The notes beneath the pieces are model-generated. The model ran no database searches and was not told the DNA's origin. It saw nothing but the letters and a program-made list of their open reading frames with translations. A stretch of DNA of 64,000 nucleotides from Bryobacteraceae bacterium (GTDB lineage: Bacteria > Acidobacteriota > Terriglobia > Bryobacterales > Bryobacteraceae): positions 62,001-126,000 of the forward strand of contig JAHDVK010000011.1 of NCBI GenBank assembly GCA_023384675.1. Reading direction: 5' to 3'. This document shows, piece by piece, positions 15,586 through 24,886 of the stretch (positions are counted from its first letter, which is position 1; each line of letters starts with the position of its first letter). The position numbers were made by a program, and so were the translations under genes.

Positions 15586-16295
15586 GTGGAAGCCGCCTTT
15601 TCGTTCATGGCCGCGAGCCGCGCCAAATCCAGCCGGCCCGTGTAGATGGCCATGCCCAGCGCGGCATGGACGTTCATCTCAAGCAGAGCTTCCACGTCAG
15701 CGTAGGTCGTAATGCCGCCCGCGGCTGTGATTTCGTGACCGGTCGCGCCTCGCAGGCGGCGGAACCAATCCAGGTCAGTGCCTTGCAGCATGCCTTCCTT
15801 GTCAACGTACGTGCAGAGGAAGCCGGAGCAGTATGGGCTGAGTTCGTTAATCGCCTCTTCGGCGGTGAGGTTGACAGACTCGGTCCAGCCTTTCACCGTG
15901 ATCCGGCCGCCTTTGGAGTCCAGTGCAATCAGGACGCGCTGGGGTGTGACGTCCTGCGCGATCGACCGCAGCAGTTCGTGGTTGATGCCGGTTTGCGTGA
16001 AAGCCGACGTGCCAACGATCACGCGGTGTGCGCCACCGTCCAGCAGTTTGCGGGCCCGGCCGGGCGTACGCACTCCGCCACCCACGCGTGCGCGACAGCG
16101 TCCGGCGAGCCGCTCGACAATCGCTTGATTCTCGCCACGGCCCAGTGCCGCGTCGAGATCGATGATCTGCAGTTCGGGAAAGGCCGCGAATTTCTCCAGC
16201 ATCACCTCCGGTGAATCGCCTTCCAGCGCCTTCTCGCGGCCCTGGACAAGCTGCACTACTTTCCCGTCCATCAGATCAATGCAGGGGATGATCAT
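15582..16295 (-). CDS. hisA: ProFAR isomerase (phosphoribosylformimino-AICAR ribotide isomerase)
   Basis: Fourth step of histidine synthesis, an Amadori rearrangement on a TIM barrel. The 237-residue protein has the catalytic Asp in PCIDLMDGKVVQL near the N-terminus, the phosphate loops GGGVRT and VGTSAF in the first half, a second catalytic Asp in YVDKEGMLQGTD, and AAGGITTYADVEAL. The ATG at 16295 shares its A with the hisF stop; GTG 16298 is an alternative. Last gene of the his operon. Confidence 0.95.
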   Translation of the reverse strand: MIIPCIDLMDGKVVQLVQGREKALEGDSPEVMLEKFAAFPELQIIDLDAALGRGENQAIVERLAGRCRARVGGGVRTPGRARKLLDGGAHRVIVGTSAFTQTGINHELLRSIAQDVTPQRVLIALDSKGGRITVKGWTESVNLTAEEAINELSPYCSGFLCTYVDKEGMLQGTDLDWFRRLRGATGHEITAAGGITTYADVEALLEMNVHAALGMAIYTGRLDLARLAAMNEKAAST

Positions 16296-17059
16296 CACGT
16301 GGTCCTTCTCACTGGGATGCCCGCGCGTTCAAGTTCCTGCTTGAGCTGATCCACTGTGTAGGTGCCGTAATGGAAGATGGATGCGGCCAGCGCGGCGTCC
16401 GCCTCGCCCTCGGTCAGCACGCGCACGAAGTGCTCCGGCTTGCCGGCCCCGCCGGAAGCGATCACAGGGATCCGGGTCGCTCGCGAAACGGCGCGCGTAA
16501 GATCGCAATCGAAGCCATCCTGCACGCCGTCGGTGTCCATCGACGTGAGCAGGATTTCCCCGGCGCCCAGTTGCTCGCCGCGCGCGGCCCACTCCACGGC
16601 GTCCATGCCTTCATCCTCGCGGCCGCCTTTCGTAAACACATTCCACGAGCCGCGCGCGTTGCGCTTGGCGTCAATCGCCAGCACGGTGGCTTGCGCGCCG
16701 AAGGCTTTGCTCAACTCGGAAATCAATTCCGGCCGCCGCACTGCCGCGGTGTTGACGGAAACTTTGTCGGCCCCGGCATGCAGAATCCGGTGGGCGTCTT
16801 CCACCCTGCGGATGCCTCCCCCCACGGTGAGAGGAATGAACACCTGCCGCGCGGTCCGGGCCACCACGTCCACCATCGTGTCCCGTTCATCGCTTGAGGC
16901 GGTGATATCGAGAAAGACAAGCTCATCGGCGGACTGCTCGTTGTACCGGGCCGCCAGTTCCACCGGGTCGCCCGCGTCGCGCAAGCCGACGAAATTGACG
17001 CCTTTCACAACCCGTCCTCCGGTGACGTCCAGACAAGGGATGATTCTTTTCGCAAGCAT
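16295..17059 (-). CDS. hisF: Imidazole glycerol phosphate synthase, cyclase subunit
   Basis: Closes the imidazole ring using ammonia delivered by HisH, giving imidazole glycerol phosphate and AICAR. The 254-residue TIM barrel begins [19 protein letters not shown] with the first catalytic Asp; the second is in [14 protein letters not shown]. Phosphate-binding loops [12 protein letters not shown] and [11 protein letters not shown] are present. ATG 17059 gives the standard start; 10 bases separate it from hisH. Confidence 0.96.
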
Positions 17060-17069
17060 GGCCTGAGTC

Positions 17070-17659
<590 letters not shown>

Positions 17660-17663
<4 letters not shown>

Positions 17664-18247
17664 AGCAGTCCCTTGGTGGACGGCAGCTCGTCTTTCAGCC
17701 GGGCATCCTTCGAGCACGCAAACTTCATCGCCCTGGCCCAGCACTTGAAGATCGCTTCCACCTTGTGATGGTTGGAGCGCCCGTAGAGCACCTTCGCATG
17801 TAGGTTGGCCCCGGCGTGCGTGGTGAAGCCATGGAAGAAATCTTCGAGCAATTCGACCTGCAGATCGCCGACCAGCCGGGTCTTCACCTTGTCCTTGTAC
17901 ACGAGATACGGCCGCCCGCCCAGATCGACGGCAACCACCGCAAGCGTCTCATCCATCGGCACCACGTAATATCCGGCACGGTTGATGCCCTTGCGCTCGC
18001 CCAGCGCACCAGCGAAAAGCTGTCCGAGCACGATGCCCACGTCCTCCACCGTGTGGTGCTGATCGACGTCGAGATCGCCCGCGGCGCTGAGGGTCAGGTC
18101 AAAGCCGCCATGTTTGGTGAAAAGCTCGAGCATGTGATCCAGAAACCGGACGCCGGTGGAAATCTCATATTTGCCTTTGCCTTCGATCTTCAGCGCGCCC
18201 CGAATCTGGGTTTCGCGGGTATTCCGTTCCACTTTGGACGTTCTCAT
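17660..18247 (-). CDS. hisB: Imidazoleglycerol-phosphate dehydratase (monofunctional)
   Basis: Manganese-dependent dehydration of imidazole glycerol phosphate. At 195 residues it is the dehydratase alone, without the N-terminal phosphatase domain that E. coli HisB carries. Metal-binding segments are [45 protein letters not shown] and [11 protein letters not shown]. It overlaps the HAD phosphatase gene upstream and hisH downstream by 4 bases each. Confidence 0.96.
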
Positions 18248-18924
18248 ACGGGCGGCAGCACTCCTTCGATTTGATTGACGTCATCCAGTACGGCGATGGC
18301 CCCTGCCTTGTTCAGCACCGCAGCCAACTCGGCGTGCCAGGGTACGTCCCGGGCGGCGATCCCGACAAACGGCACCCCAGCCGCGCTCGCGCTGCGCGCA
18401 TCGTCGACGGTATCGCCGACGTAGAAATACCGCGGCGCGGGATGGCGATCCAAAATCATTAGCAGGCCGTCCGGGGCGGGCTTCGCATTTGCCACGTCGT
18501 CCGCGGTCACCACCGGATCAAAGGGGATGCCGTCCGCGAACCGAGCGAGAGTGACCGACGCCTCCACCTGGCTGCGGCCGGTGAAGATGGCGAGTTGAAA
18601 TCGCAGAGACAGCCTCTGCAGCAGTCCGCCGGCTGGAACCCAACGCTCGCGAGTGATCAGGCCGTCGTTGTTCTCGCCAAGGAACACGCGATTGAAGTAT
18701 TCGACCACCGTTTCGTAGGGCACTTCGACGCCATGATCCCGGCAGATCTGCTGTGAAAGAAGCCAGTCGTTGTTGTATCCGCCCTGGTTCTTGTAGTGTT
18801 GAATGCGCTCCCTCTCCACCGTCCTGCCGGTGAAATGGCGCACGGTCTCCACAATGGATTCGCGGTAGCTCTCGCCGACCTCGGCGAGCACGCCATCCAT
18901 GTCAAAAATCAGCATGGGCTTCAT
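18244..18924 (-). CDS. HAD-superfamily phosphatase inside the his operon, candidate histidinol-phosphatase
   Basis: A 226-residue HAD hydrolase. Motif I is FDMDGVL (nucleophile Asp and acid Asp), motif II is in IFTGRSQ, motif III Lys is in NAKPAPDG, and motif IV is [10 protein letters not shown], so all four motifs are intact. A helical cap lies between motifs I and II. The start ATG 18924 makes an ATGA overlap with the hisC stop and its stop overlaps hisB, so it is embedded between hisC and hisB. Because hisB lacks a phosphatase domain and no other histidinol-phosphatase is present, it is the best candidate for that step. Position and motifs are seen; the substrate is inferred. Confidence 0.85.
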
Positions 18925-19979
18925 GTCCACACCTCGTCGAGCGCCTCGAAAAACCGCCGGACCTGCTCGGGCGTACCCGCGGTCACGCGCACGCAGCCCG
19001 CGATCTCGTAGCTGCGGTCGCGCACCAGTACGCCGCGGTCCCGAAGGGCGTCGCGCACCATAATCGACCGTTCCTCCGCGCGAAAGAGAACGAAATTCGC
19101 CTGGCTGGGGTAAGCCTGGATCTTGCGTGCGGCGAAGCCTTCGAACAAAAGAGCGCGCGCCGCCAGCGACTGCGCAACGTAGTTGCTGAGATACCGCGTG
19201 TCCTCGACGGCGGCCCGCACCGCGATGGCCGCCAGCAGATTCACGCTATAGGGCGACTGCGCTTTGTGTGCATAGCGGATGTTGTGCTCCTGAGAGAACA
19301 GGCACCCAACGCGTAGAGCGGCCATGCCGAAGGCCTTTGAAAAAGTGCGGCTCACGAACAAGTTCGGATACTGTTCAATTAGCCGCAGACCGGTGACGCC
19401 GCAGAATTCGTAATATGCCTCGTCGATCAGTACGGCCGCGTGCGGGGCGCGCTCGAGGATCTGCACCATCGCGCCCACGCCGATCGATGTGCCCGTGGGG
19501 TTATTCGGATTCGAGATCAGAATTGCGCGCGTGCGTGGTGTGATCGCACGCAGCAATTCCTCAACCGGAAAGCTGAGGTCCGCGGGGTGATAGTCCAGCG
19601 ACACGATCCGCGCTCCCGCCACCTCACTGTAGAAGCGGTACATCGCATAGCTGGGATGCAGGATGATCACCTCGTCATCGTCATCCACGAACGTGTTGAC
19701 GAGCACCTGAATCGCCTCGTCAGTGCCGTTGGTCAAAAGAAACGTGGATTCGGGCGTCTGAAAGTATTCGGCCAGAGCGGCGCGCGTGGCTTCGTACTCG
19801 GGATAAATTGTGAGCGCCTCGGCGTTCAGCTTTTCAGTCAGCAGCTCGATCACGCGCGGGGAGCAGCCCACGGTGTTCTCGTTGAAATCGAGACGCAGCT
19901 TGCCCGCACGCCCGGCGGTGGGCGGCGAATAAGGCGCCATACGCTTTACGGCGTTCCGCGGCTGCAGCGATTCACCCAC
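18921..19979 (-). CDS. hisC: Histidinol-phosphate aminotransferase
   Basis: PLP enzyme, fold type I, that converts imidazole acetol phosphate and glutamate to histidinol phosphate. It has LRLDFNENTVGCSPRV near the start, NGTDEAIQVL, ISNPNNPTG, LIDEAYYEF, and the PLP lysine in VSRTFSKAFGMAALRVG. GTG 19979 is chosen because it overlaps the hisD stop by 8 bases, giving 352 residues; ATG 19940 would remove 13 residues and is possible. Confidence 0.95.
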   Translation of the reverse strand: MGESLQPRNAVKRMAPYSPPTAGRAGKLRLDFNENTVGCSPRVIELLTEKLNAEALTIYPEYEATRAALAEYFQTPESTFLLTNGTDEAIQVLVNTFVDDDDEVIILHPSYAMYRFYSEVAGARIVSLDYHPADLSFPVEELLRAITPRTRAILISNPNNPTGTSIGVGAMVQILERAPHAAVLIDEAYYEFCGVTGLRLIEQYPNLFVSRTFSKAFGMAALRVGCLFSQEHNIRYAHKAQSPYSVNLLAAIAVRAAVEDTRYLSNYVAQSLAARALLFEGFAARKIQAYPSQANFVLFRAEERSIMVRDALRDRGVLVRDRSYEIAGCVRVTAGTPEQVRRFFEALDEVWT

Positions 19980-21216
19980 GCGTCCGCACCTCCACGCTCC
20001 GTGCATGCGCTTCCAGGCCCTCCGCCCGCGCCAGCGTGGTGATGGATGGCTCGAGCGCTCGCAGGGCCGCTTCGCTCAACTGCTGCACGGAGATCACTTT
20101 AACGAAGTCGGCTGCCGAGAGCCCCCCGCGCAAGCGTGCCGCACCGCCTGTCGGAAGCACATGATTCGGCCCGCTTGCGTAGTCGCCCGCCGCTTCGGGG
20201 CTGCGCGCGCCCAAGAAGACACTGCCCGCATGACGAATCGCCGGCAGCAGTTTCGCGTCGTGCAGGCTCAGGTGCTCGGGTGCGAACCGGTTGGACAATT
20301 CCACGGCCTCTTCGTCCGATTGCACGAGGATGATGGCCGAATTGCGGTCAATCGCCTTGCGGGCCACCGGCGCGGTTGGCAAGGTTTCCAACTGTTTTTC
20401 GACCTCCGCCGCTACGGCGTCCGCCAGGGAGCGCGAGCGCGTCAGCAGGATCGCTGAAGCGTCGGTGTCGTGTTCGGCCTGCGCCAGCAGGTCAGCCGCC
20501 AGCCAGGCCGGATCTCCATCGGCGGCAATAATCAGGATCTCCGTCGGCCCGGCGACGAAATCGATGCCCACTTCGCCGGCCAGCAGTTTCTTCGCGGCGG
20601 CCACGTAGATGTTGCCCGGACCCACAATGCGGTCCGCTTTTGGCACCGTTTTCGTTCCATAGGCGAAGGCGGCGATGGCCTGCGCGCCGCCCATCTCAAA
20701 CACGTGCGTGGCACCCAGCATGCGGGCTGCGCCCAGAATCTCGTCCACGGGTTTTGGCGACGCGACCATCACATTGGTCACTCCGGCGACGAGCGCGGGC
20801 ACGACCGTCATAATCACCGTCGAGGGCAGCGGATACCGCCCTGCCGGGACGTAGGCCGCCACGCTTTCGAGCGGCCGCACGATTTGCGACAGCTTAAGAC
20901 CGGGTGACGGTTCGATCTTCGCCGCCTTCGGCAGCTGCATTTTGGAGTAGGCGCGAACGTTCTTTGCCGACGTGCGCACCGCCCGCCGGAAAGCGGGCGA
21001 CAGCCGCTTCTGTGCCGCCTCCAGCGCCTCACGCGGCACAGCCACCGATCTGCGCTGGAGGTTGTCGAACCTCCGCGCGTACTCGATCAGCGCGCCATCC
21101 CCCCGCGTCCGCACCGCGTCCAGAATCGGCCGTACCGCTTGTTCCGCCTCCGTCATCCGCGCGGCGCGGCGCCTCAACAGGCGTTCCGCGGACTTGCTGT
21201 CAACAATGCGAATCAT
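19972..21216 (-). CDS. hisD: Histidinol dehydrogenase
   Basis: Zinc enzyme that oxidises histidinol to histidine in two NAD-dependent steps. The 414-residue protein has AAYVPAGRYPLPSTVIM, the signature around VDRIVGPGN-like ADRIVGPGNIYVAAAKK, FVAGPTEILI, LLAQAEHDTDASAIL with the zinc Gln/His, and NRFAPEHLSLH with the catalytic Glu-His. An 8-base gap from hisG precedes it. Confidence 0.96.
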   Translation of the reverse strand: MIRIVDSKSAERLLRRRAARMTEAEQAVRPILDAVRTRGDGALIEYARRFDNLQRRSVAVPREALEAAQKRLSPAFRRAVRTSAKNVRAYSKMQLPKAAKIEPSPGLKLSQIVRPLESVAAYVPAGRYPLPSTVIMTVVPALVAGVTNVMVASPKPVDEILGAARMLGATHVFEMGGAQAIAAFAYGTKTVPKADRIVGPGNIYVAAAKKLLAGEVGIDFVAGPTEILIIAADGDPAWLAADLLAQAEHDTDASAILLTRSRSLADAVAAEVEKQLETLPTAPVARKAIDRNSAIILVQSDEEAVELSNRFAPEHLSLHDAKLLPAIRHAGSVFLGARSPEAAGDYASGPNHVLPTGGAARLRGGLSAADFVKVISVQQLSEAALRALEPSITTLARAEGLEAHARSVEVRTRG

Positions 21217-21223
21217 CTACGCC

Positions 21224-22096
21224 TCACATCACGATTTTGTTCAGCGGATACTCAACGATGCCCTGCGCGCCCGCGGCCTTCAACCGCGGGATGATGTTGC
21301 GCACCGTGGACTCGTCGAGGATCGTATTCACCGCCAGCCACTCGCCGTCGCTCAAAGAAGATACGGTGGGATTTTTCAACGCGGGCAGCACGTTGAGCAC
21401 CGCATCCAGATCGTTCTTGCGCACGTTCAGCATCAACCCCACCTTGCCCAACGCGGCAATCGCCCCGTCGAGCAGCATGCGCATATCTTCGAGTTTACGG
21501 CGCTTATCCGGGTCATTCCACGCCGCGTGATTGGCGATGAGCTGCGTGTTCGATTCCATCACGATCTCGACGATCCGCAAATTGTTGGCGCGCAGCGAGG
21601 AGCCGGTCTCGGTCACTTCCACGATCGCGTCGGCCAGCACTGGCGGCTTCACCTCGGTTGCGCCCCAGGAGAACTCCACCTTGGCCGAGACACCGTTCTT
21701 CTCGAGGTACCTTTTCGTCGCCCCCACCAGTTCCGTAGCGATGATCTTCCCCTCCAGATCCTTCACGCTCTGCACCGGCGAAGCTTCCGGCACGGCCAGC
21801 ACCCAGCGCACTTTGCCGAAGCTCTGCTTTGCGTAGACCAGATCGGCGACCGTCACTACATCGGAGTCGTTCTCGATCACCCAGTCAAACCCGGTCAGTC
21901 CGGCGTCCAGAATTCCGTCTTCCACATAGCGCGCCATCTCCTGCGCGCGGATCAGCATGCATTCGATCTCTGGATCGTCGATGGATGGAAAGTAACTCCG
22001 GCTGCTCACATTGATGACGAACCCTGCCTTGCGGAAGAGTTCGACCGTGGCATTTTCCAGACTGCCCTTCGGGATGCCCAGTTTTAATAGACTCAT
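21224..22096 (-). CDS. hisG: ATP phosphoribosyltransferase, long form
   Basis: Commits ATP and PRPP to histidine synthesis. At 290 residues it is the long, hexameric form with a C-terminal ACT-like regulatory domain (about 215-290) for histidine feedback, so HisZ is not expected. Visible are [26 protein letters not shown], and the PRPP-binding [20 protein letters not shown] 22096 is the conserved start. Control is thus double: feedback on this enzyme and, by the leader upstream, attenuation of the operon. Confidence 0.95.
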
Positions 22097-22103
22097 GGAA
22101 TTT

Positions 22104-22481
22104 CTACTTTTCTCCGTAAACCGCGGCGGGGTCGTATTGCTTTTCTTCCGTGACGGTCCAATTCCCATCCTTCAGAGTCCGGAAGAAACAACTCTGATAG
22201 CCTTCGTGGCAGACTCCCGGGCCTTGCGCTTCCACGAAGACCAGCAGGCAATCGGCGTCACAGTCCGTCTGAATCTTCTTCACCGCGAGCCGGTGACCCG
22301 AACTCTCGCCTTTCAGCCACAACTTGTTCCGCGAGCGGCTGTAGAACGTCGCGAAACCGCTCTCCACGGTCCGGCGGAACGCCTCTTCGTTCATGAAGCC
22401 GACCATCAGAACCCGGCCTGTCGCCTCGTCCTGAATCACGGCCGGAATCAGGCCATCGAGTTTCCTAAAGTCCAGTTCCAT
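22104..22481 (-). CDS. hisI: Phosphoribosyl-AMP cyclohydrolase
   Basis: Zinc/magnesium enzyme opening the adenine ring of PR-AMP. The 125-residue protein starts [19 protein letters not shown], has [18 protein letters not shown], the metal site DCDADCLL and the Cys/His segment [11 protein letters not shown]. No HisE (PR-ATP pyrophosphatase) domain follows, so HisI is monofunctional. ATG 22481 fits family starts; ATG 22502 in frame would add seven residues. First structural gene after the leader and terminator. Confidence 0.93.
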
Positions 22482-22510
22482 GTTTGCTCGTTTCCTAGCC
22501 ATCTGCACAA

Positions 22511-22537
22511 AGAAAGCCCGCCGTTCTCGCGGCGGGC
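22511..22537 (-). terminator. Attenuator terminator of the his operon
   Basis: On the minus strand GCCCGCCG (22537-22530) pairs perfectly with CGGCGGGC (22523-22516) over a 6-base loop and is followed by TTTCTTT. It lies after the histidine leader peptide and just before hisI, so it can only act to stop the operon early. Seven bases of its 5' arm can pair instead with GGCGGGC at 22589-22583 in the leader coding region, giving the competing antiterminator. Confidence 0.8.
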
Positions 22538-22568
22538 CCTTTGAAAGTCTTGCGTTTCGCTGTTCTCG

Positions 22569-22637
22569 CTAGCGCGCAGACCGCCCGCCCATCTCATGAT
22601 GGTGATGCTGACGGTGAGTGCGGCCGGCGCTGTACAT
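22569..22637 (-). CDS. hisL: his operon leader peptide (22 residues, His-rich)
   Basis: Minus-strand ATG 22637 to TAG 22569 encodes MYSAGRTHRQHHHHEMGGRS followed by AR, with five histidine codons in a seven-codon stretch (22616-22596). AAGGG lies four bases before the ATG. The His run is followed by a G-rich segment able to pair with the terminator 5' arm. A ribosome stalled at the His codons would leave that segment free and let transcription continue; a ribosome that reaches the stop would cover it. This is the logic of enterobacterial hisL, found here by its codons and not by similarity. The peptide itself is probably not functional as a protein. Confidence 0.8.
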   Translation of the reverse strand: MYSAGRTHRQHHHHEMGGRSAR

Positions 22638-22646
22638 GAAACCCTT

Positions 22647-22676
22647 AGCATACCACGCCTCATCCAACGTCGTAAA
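22647..22676 (-). promoter_or_regulatory. Possible promoter of the his leader
   Basis: Minus-strand TTTACG (22676-22671), 18-base spacer, then an extended -10 element TGGTATGCT (hexamer 22652-22647). The start point would fall near 22640, making the leader mRNA almost leaderless and leaving AAGGG at or outside its 5' end. That tension keeps confidence low. Confidence 0.35.
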
Positions 22677-22741: not shown

Positions 22742-24886
22742 ATGTTTCAATCATTGATCCGGCTTTTGCTGCGGCTCCTGTATCGCGTCCAGGTGAGCGG
22801 GCAGTTGCAAAGAGCGCCGAAAACGCTCATCGTCGCCAACCACCAATCCTTCCTCGATGCCGTCCTGCTCTGGGCCTGGCTGCCGCGCGACGTCCTCTAC
22901 ATCGTCCACACCCAGGTCATGGAGGAACGCCTGTTCCGTTTCCTCCTGCGATTCGCTGAGTATGTCGTGATCGATACTACGCGCCCCATGGCGATGAAGC
23001 AGGTGGCCGAGTTGATTGATTCCGGCCGTCCGGTGGTCATCTTCCCGGAGGGCCGCGTCACAACGACCGGGGCGATGATGAAGATCTACGACGGGCCTGC
23101 CTTCCTCGCCGCGCGCACCGGCGCCATGGTCGCTCCTATTACCATTGACGGGGCGATTCATGCCCGCGGCTTTACACGCATGACGCGCGACTTCCCGCGC
23201 CGCTTCTTCCCGCGCATCACGGTGACCTTCCATCCGGGCGAACTGCTGCCCATGCCTGAAGCCCCGAACGCCAAGCTCCGCCGCCGCAAGGCCAGCGAAG
23301 AACTGCGCCGCATCCTGCAGCGCGCCTGGCTCGCCGCCCGCCCGTCCCGTTCACTCCACGACGCCTTCCTGGAGGCTGTCGAGTTGCATGGCCGCGGCCG
23401 TGATCTCGCCGCCGACGCCGGCGGCACGAAGTTCACCTACGGAACTCTTCTCAAGGCTTCTCTCGCCCTTGGCCGGCTTACGGGCAAATTTACAAGCGAA
23501 AACGAAGTAGTCGGCGTGATGATGCCCAATGCCTCTGCCACCCTCGGGCTTTTCCTGGGCCTGCTCGGCGCGCGCCGCATCCCCGCGATGCTCAACTTCA
23601 CCGCCGGTGTGGAAGGACTCAATAGCGCCATTCGCGCCGCGGAGATCAAGACCGTTCTTACCTCCCGCGCCTTCCTCGAACGCGCCAACCTCCAGCCGGT
23701 CGTTGACAGGCTCGAGGGCGTGCGCATCGTTCTGCTTGAAGACCTCCGCGCCACCCTGACCCTGGCCGACAAACTCTGGCTCATCCTCTTCGCGCTGCCC
23801 TTCCCCCGCGCCGCCACGCTACGGTCGAAACCGGAAGATCCCGCCGCGGTCCTCTTCACGTCCGGATCGGAAGGGAAGCCCAAAGGGGTCGTCCTGGCAC
23901 ACCGTTCCATCCTCGCCAATATCGAACAGGTGCTTACGGTGATGGATGTTTCGCCTGCCGACAAGATCCTTTCCGCCATGCCCGTATTTCATAGCTTCGG
24001 GCTGATGGCCGGTTTCCTTCTGCCGGTGCTCGGGGGCCTGCGCGTGTTTCTCTACCCCACGCCGCTTCATTACTCAATCCTTCCGGAGCTCTTCTACGAC
24101 CGCGATTGCACGGTGATGTTTGCCACGCCCACGTTCCTTAAGCATTACGCCCGCCGCGCCCATCCCTATGACTTCCGCCGCGTGCGCCTTCTGCTCGCGG
24201 GCGCTGAGAAACTCACTGACGAGATCCGCCTGACTTATCTCGAGAAATTCGGAGTGCGGGTTCTCGAAGGCTACGGCGCCACCGAATGCTCGCCCGTCAT
24301 CGCCGTCAACACGCCCATGAAATGCAAGGCGGGCAGCGTGGGTGAACTGCTTCCAGGCGTCGAGGCGCGCTTGGAAACGGTGCCCGGAATCGAGCGCGGC
24401 GGCCTTCTCCATGTCCGCGGCCCCAACCTCATGCTCGGCTATTGGAAGGAGGCCGCGCCCCGGACTCTCGAACAACCCGCTTCCGTCTTCGGCCCCGGCT
24501 GGTACGCTACCGGCGATCTTGCCGAATTCGACGAACATGATTTTCTGACGCTGCTCGGACGCGTAAAGCGCTTCGCCAAGGTCGCCGGTGAGATGGTCTC
24601 TCTGGAAGTGGTCGAAAATCTGGCCGAAGCCGCCAGCCCCGCGGCCCTCCACGCCGCTGTAAACCTGCCTGACGAACGGCGCGGCGAGATGATCGTCATC
24701 TGCACACAGGACCCGGCTCTCGACCGCGCGCGCCTCCAGGAGGCCGCCCGCGAACTCGGCGCGCCGGAACTCGCCATTCCCCGGCGCGTGATCCACGTGC
24801 CGAAAATTCCTCTTCTCGGGAACGGCAAAAAGGACTATCCTCGATTGAATGCCCTGGTGGAGGAACTGATTGCCGCAAAACAATAA
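22742..24886 (+). CDS. Aas-like fused acyltransferase and acyl-ACP/acyl-CoA synthetase
   Basis: A 714-residue two-domain protein. The N-terminal third (about 1-205) is a PlsC-type acyltransferase: NHQSFLD gives the His-x4-Asp active site, and VVIFPEGR is the glycerol-phosphate motif. The C-terminal part (about 215-712) is an AMP-forming synthetase with LFTSGSEGKPKGVVLAHRS, VLEGYGATECSPV, YATGDLAEFDE and the late lysine in LLGNGKKDYP. E. coli Aas has the same order and re-acylates lysophospholipids at the inner membrane; that role is inferred here. It shares 17 bases with the transporter gene that follows. A TACACT -10-like element lies 32 bases upstream. Confidence 0.87.
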   Translation: MFQSLIRLLLRLLYRVQVSGQLQRAPKTLIVANHQSFLDAVLLWAWLPRDVLYIVHTQVMEERLFRFLLRFAEYVVIDTTRPMAMKQVAELIDSGRPVVIFPEGRVTTTGAMMKIYDGPAFLAARTGAMVAPITIDGAIHARGFTRMTRDFPRRFFPRITVTFHPGELLPMPEAPNAKLRRRKASEELRRILQRAWLAARPSRSLHDAFLEAVELHGRGRDLAADAGGTKFTYGTLLKASLALGRLTGKFTSENEVVGVMMPNASATLGLFLGLLGARRIPAMLNFTAGVEGLNSAIRAAEIKTVLTSRAFLERANLQPVVDRLEGVRIVLLEDLRATLTLADKLWLILFALPFPRAATLRSKPEDPAAVLFTSGSEGKPKGVVLAHRSILANIEQVLTVMDVSPADKILSAMPVFHSFGLMAGFLLPVLGGLRVFLYPTPLHYSILPELFYDRDCTVMFATPTFLKHYARRAHPYDFRRVRLLLAGAEKLTDEIRLTYLEKFGVRVLEGYGATECSPVIAVNTPMKCKAGSVGELLPGVEARLETVPGIERGGLLHVRGPNLMLGYWKEAAPRTLEQPASVFGPGWYATGDLAEFDEHDFLTLLGRVKRFAKVAGEMVSLEVVENLAEAASPAALHAAVNLPDERRGEMIVICTQDPALDRARLQEAARELGAPELAIPRRVIHVPKIPLLGNGKKDYPRLNALVEELIAAKQ

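Follow-up and report, generated by a model that had tools for sequence, protein, structure and literature searches.

The his operon of this Bryobacteraceae genome is very probably under the control of a ribosome-mediated transcription attenuator with charged tRNA-His as its signal. In the window (the whole 64,000-nucleotide stretch analysed here), a short His-rich open reading frame (ORF), a segment of its last codons that can pair with a terminator arm, and the terminator itself precede hisI on the minus strand, and this set of elements recurs among relatives with its order and spacing conserved and with competing helices that change together between families. The locus thus combines a run of codons for one amino acid in a short ORF, a terminator ahead of the first structural gene, and an antiterminator strand that competes for one arm of this terminator and is so placed that the position of a ribosome would decide between the two pairings.

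The leader, the terminator and the his operon

An earlier note, made from the sequence alone, had described a 22-codon minus-strand His frame, a stop codon, and a perfect 8-bp GC stem-loop with a T-rich tail before hisI, and a reading of positions 22700-22460 (minus strand) found all the elements that it named, base for base. The predicted leader peptide ORF (22569-22637, minus strand; MYSAGRTHRQHHHHEMGGRSAR, 22 codons plus TAG) carries a run of four His codons (CATCACCATCAT, 22596-22607), the putative site of ribosome stalling, and an additional His codon at 22616-22614. Within its last codons lies region 2, the antiterminator strand GGCGGGC (22583-22589), which is the exact complement of GCCCGCC (22537-22531), just as the note had stated. 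The latter belongs to region 3 (GCCCGCCG, 22530-22537), at once the terminator 5' arm and the partner of region 2, whereas region 4 (CGGCGGGC, 22523-22516) and the T-rich tail TTTCTTTG form the 3' part of the intrinsic terminator (22508-22523). The terminator hairpin (22537-22516) thus has the stem GCCCGCCG / CGGCGGGC and the loop CGAGAA; its T tail is broken by one C, which accounts for its absence from the list of a simple terminator scan.

When the 240 nt before the window's hisI were shuffled 2000 times with dinucleotides preserved, the observed His density was never reached, and the pairing between the leader and the terminator arm (-18.2 kcal/mol) was equalled by none of 50 leader shuffles. 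The folding z-scores of the antiterminator and terminator stretches were -3.2 and -3.7, respectively, and that of the 1:2 fold of the leader was -2.3.

The first structural gene of the operon, hisI (22104-22481, minus strand, ATG at 22481), encodes phosphoribosyl-AMP cyclohydrolase and matches NCBIfam NF000768 above the cut-off, and further NCBIfam matches identify the remaining genes (16295-22096, minus strand), giving the order hisI-hisG-hisD-hisC-HAD-hisB-hisH-hisF. The gene between hisC and hisB (18244-18930, minus strand) encodes a HAD hydrolase similar to TIGR01548 (132.7 bits, below the cut-off of 140.2). Relatives, too, have a HAD gene within the his cluster, and the window's HAD protein may be the histidinol-phosphate phosphatase that the operon otherwise lacks. 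Neither hisA nor hisE is among the genes identified in the operon (16295-22481, minus strand), and both may sit elsewhere. The gene upstream of the leader (22742-24886, plus strand), acyltransferase and AMP-ligase-like as judged from its translation, is divergent. With no gene upstream to which it could belong, the terminator must be premature.

Conservation of the leader and its start

The genome, which the earlier note had called acidobacterium-like, is indeed of acidobacterial lineage and belongs with Bryobacteraceae relatives. The note had suggested comparing the regions upstream of hisI in related genomes, and relatives were searched at the genus, family, order, class and phylum levels. 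Among relatives, 86 distinct regions upstream of hisI were compared, and 84 of them contain at least four His per ten codons; shuffled sequences do so in 2.6% of cases and the opposite strand in 0%. The His codons before hisI are kept in all four congeners. In a matched control, the same density was reached in only one of 54 ilvB, leuA and trpE upstream regions of these relatives, and no leaders were seen upstream of trpE and leuA.

Altogether, 161 distinct His leaders were collected across 23 family labels, most of them in the class Terriglobia and fewer outside, preceding hisI or, less often, hisG or hisD. Within Terriglobia, the leader stands before hisI in families f1, f2, part of f3, f4, f6, f7, f8, f11 and f12; outside this class, leaders before hisI with clear terminators occur in f35, f44, f55, f57 and f69, and f26 has a leader before hisI for which no terminator was detected. 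In f15, f16, f28, f29, f32, f34, f37 and f38, also outside Terriglobia, the candidates before hisG or hisD are weaker and count as leads only, several of them having no clear terminator. Three loci missed by the stricter ORF filter (L103, L104 and L165) contain, on reading, His-containing frames followed by a terminator. The leader was not recognisable in genus g78 (f3), f9, f10 and the examined f5 genomes, all of which have his genes, nor was one found in these groups when it was sought before hisG; in f9, f10 and the examined f5 genomes, hisI is mostly at the operon end. In genus g78 (to which most of loci L148-L150 and L156-L163 belong), the arrangement is hisI-hisD-hisC-HAD, with no hisG, leader or terminator. 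Locus L159, from the related genus g81, has a terminator and a His-rich frame with no obvious ATG, which by its sequence looks like a decaying leader.

The collected leaders have a median of 23 codons, six of them for His. The terminator starts at a median of 27 nt past the leader stop codon (22-30 nt in most cases), and its folding has a mean z of -3.4 across the set.

A -10-like hexamer was found 5-12 nt before the leader start in 143 of the 161 leaders, most often at 8-9 nt, with 14% of shuffles reaching the same loose score, and high-scoring -10 boxes (TATACT and similar, with or without TG) precede 59% of the leaders versus 0.3% of shuffled sequences. Shine-Dalgarno-like 4-mers, on the other hand, precede 3% of the leaders versus 5% when shuffled. 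Relatives carry a TGCTATACT box 8-9 nt before the leader ATG, the spacing also seen in the window, and the Bryobacteraceae consensus before the leader start is T.TGCTATACT...atTTcATG. In the window, scanning with a plain sigma-70 model yielded no promoter for the leader, and the -10-like box TATGCT (22652-22647) is recognisable only through comparison with relatives; together with TTTACG (22676-22671), at a spacing of 18 nt, it makes up a putative promoter (22647-22676, minus strand). The presence of a -10 box just before the ATG and the lack of a Shine-Dalgarno sequence fit a transcript whose 5' end coincides with the leader ATG or lies no more than a few bases from it, and the leader ORF is probably translated from a leaderless mRNA.

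Competing pairings and alternative explanations

Pairing energies were computed for the 148 leaders with a clear terminator. From its first His codon on, the leader pairs with its own terminator 5' arm at a mean of -15.9 kcal/mol, compared with -11.9 kcal/mol for shuffled leaders; taken singly, the pairings beat shuffles by no more than a moderate margin (median p 0.06), so the strength of this evidence rests in the set. Swapping in three generic terminator arms proved too coarse a test, and in its place we used a full cognate/non-cognate interaction test, in which row and column means are removed and the diagonal (each leader with its own partner) is compared. Cognate pairs were better by 1.7 kcal/mol (147 leaders; z = -10.9, a pooled value inflated by related sequences), and specificity was retained when the window's family was left out (z = -6.4). 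Drawing one leader per family from 18 families, which lessens this inflation and does not remove it, gave a median z of -4.9, with p < 0.05 in 200 of 200 draws.

Consistent with these values, changes in the terminator sequence between families are matched by changes in the complementary segment of the leader's last codons. The visible pairs are CGGCGGGC with GCCCGCCG in Bryobacteraceae, TGCCAGCGG or TGTCAGTGGG with CCCGCTGGC or CCCGCTGAC and CCAGCGG with CCCGCTGG in f6 and f8, GCCGGGC with GCCCGGC in f12, and CCGGAGGG with CCCTCCG in f15. The mutually exclusive pairing of leader and terminator put forward in the earlier note is therefore kept among relatives and co-varies between families, though L004 and L005, two of the four congeners, show a weaker pairing (about -14 kcal/mol, shuffle p 0.14-0.18).

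This covariation bears on the view that the short ORF encodes a functional His-rich, metal-binding micropeptide and that the terminator is a mere constitutive dampener. His-rich peptides can bind metals, and some leader peptides act in trans, as does peTrpL of Sinorhizobium (PMC7298713). However, the peptides have little in common beyond the His run and the region 2 codons, the positions of the His residues and the peptide length vary, the ORF goes with his genes and does not occur upstream of ilvB, leuA and trpE, and peptide function leaves the covariation of region 2 with the terminator unexplained; we regard a micropeptide as very improbable. An equally slight chance is given to attenuation that acts on hisI translation or through Rho instead of an intrinsic terminator: leader attenuators are known in transcriptional and translational variants (PMC9413887), but the GC-rich hairpin with its T-rich tail upstream of the hisI start is conserved, with the mean folding z given above, and leaves that start uncovered. 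Finally, although a single genome could show matches of this size by chance, a coincidence of His codons in GC-rich DNA with an unrelated terminator is refuted by the conservation in 84 of 86 relatives and by the covariation across families.

Proposed mechanism and comparison with known attenuators

For the attenuator that we favour, the sequences lead us to infer the following course of events. Transcription would begin at or a few bases from the leader ATG, and a ribosome would load and trail RNA polymerase. When histidine is ample, this ribosome would reach the stop codon and cover region 2, leaving region 3 to pair with region 4, so that transcription terminates before hisI. When histidine is short, the ribosome would stall at the His codons and leave region 2 free to pair with region 3, which would block the terminator and allow transcription of hisI-G-D-C-HAD-B-H-F. 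The distances measured in the leader set are consistent with this scheme, since region 2 starts at a median of 31 nt past the first His codon of the run and ends at a median of 6 nt ahead of the leader stop codon. Given the known size of a ribosome footprint, region 2 would not be reached by a ribosome stalled at the His codons and would fall within the footprint of one at the stop codon, so that sufficiency would favour the 3:4 pairing and shortage the 2:3 pairing. Across the set, the 1:2 leader hairpin is weak, with a mean z of -1.3, and the fraction of paired region 2 bases is 76%, as compared with 66% when the upstream sequence is shuffled; this hairpin might possibly hold region 2 when no ribosome loads.

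We give about even chances to a broader interpretation, namely that this is an ancient and widespread his attenuator of Acidobacteriota, a compact two-state device with a leaderless start and an antiterminator in the last leader codons that is masked by the ribosome at the stop codon, and that it may represent the phylum's general control of amino acid operons. The last part is suggested by the presence of an ilvB leader of like build. In the window's genome, a Val/Ile-rich short ORF, ending in VVGIISIGVLVPSSA and a stop codon, starts 7 nt after a TAGTCT box and is followed by the terminator GGCCACC..GGGTGGCCTTTTTT and then by ilvB (locus L258, G000:C52:26031-30716, some 290-65 nt upstream of the ilvB match at position 1501). 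Similar ilvB leaders are found in congeners (L262 and L265) and in members of the family (L261, L263 and L264). The L258 leader is probably an attenuator for branched-chain amino acids, built like that of the his operon, and the ilvB leaders tested gave no Rfam match.

As to the his leader, an Rfam scan of the window found no leader family, including RF00514 (His_leader), and no T-box above the gathering score; in the leader region, with E values up to 10 allowed, the only match was a sub-threshold Thr_leader (15.3 bits versus 55), and a scan of nine loci also gave no leader family. Our literature search found no earlier description of an acidobacterial his leader, although one may still have been predicted in older surveys.

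Leader-peptide attenuation is so far known mainly from Proteobacteria and Actinobacteria, with scattered cases in Firmicutes (PMC2965389, PMC9413887). The 2010 survey reported leader peptides from these three phyla, and almost all of its predicted Acidobacteria attenuators had no assigned function (PMC2965389). The element described here supplies an acidobacterial attenuator with a clear signal (His-tRNA) and target, across many families of a large soil phylum that has received little study, and it is relevant to the question whether leader-peptide attenuation is old or had many origins. It also offers a model open to testing and, where genetic tools for a host are scarce, a candidate His-responsive element; its leader adds a small ORF of a size usually missed by gene finders.

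Among known systems, the ilvB-OMG motif, found in various phyla, and the ilvB-II motif likewise combine amino-acid-rich upstream ORFs with alternative RNA structures, but they concern branched-chain amino acids and ilvB, not his (PMC10272879). In Sinorhizobium meliloti trpL (rnTrpL), the leader ATG is the transcript 5' end and an attenuator follows (PMC7298713); that alphaproteobacterial system responds to Trp instead of His and was shown experimentally, whereas the leaderless start proposed here is predicted from comparison. One paper names RNA attenuators of his genes only in Proteobacteria and in three Firmicutes groups, the Bacillus cereus group, Peptostreptococcaceae and Erysipelotrichales, the latter with three to five consecutive His codons and a terminator/antiterminator (PMC9413887). 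As in those Firmicutes, the present element has consecutive His codons and a terminator and antiterminator before the his operon, and comparative genomics was the basis in both cases (PMC9413887), but it belongs to another phylum.

With enterobacterial hisL (RF00514), to which the earlier note had likened it, the element shares the short ORF with a His run, the intrinsic terminator before the first his gene and the alternative pairing of the leader with a terminator arm, although it does not match the covariance model of that family. In enterobacterial his leaders, the antiterminator strand follows the His codons within a leader that is longer and has several stems, whereas here it lies inside the ORF, just before the stop codon, and there is no Shine-Dalgarno sequence and probably a leaderless start. 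The comparative evidence strongly supports a mechanism like that of hisL, with the probable leaderless start and the antiterminator inside the ORF as refinements; the mechanism is thus already known, whereas the lineage and these details appear to be new.
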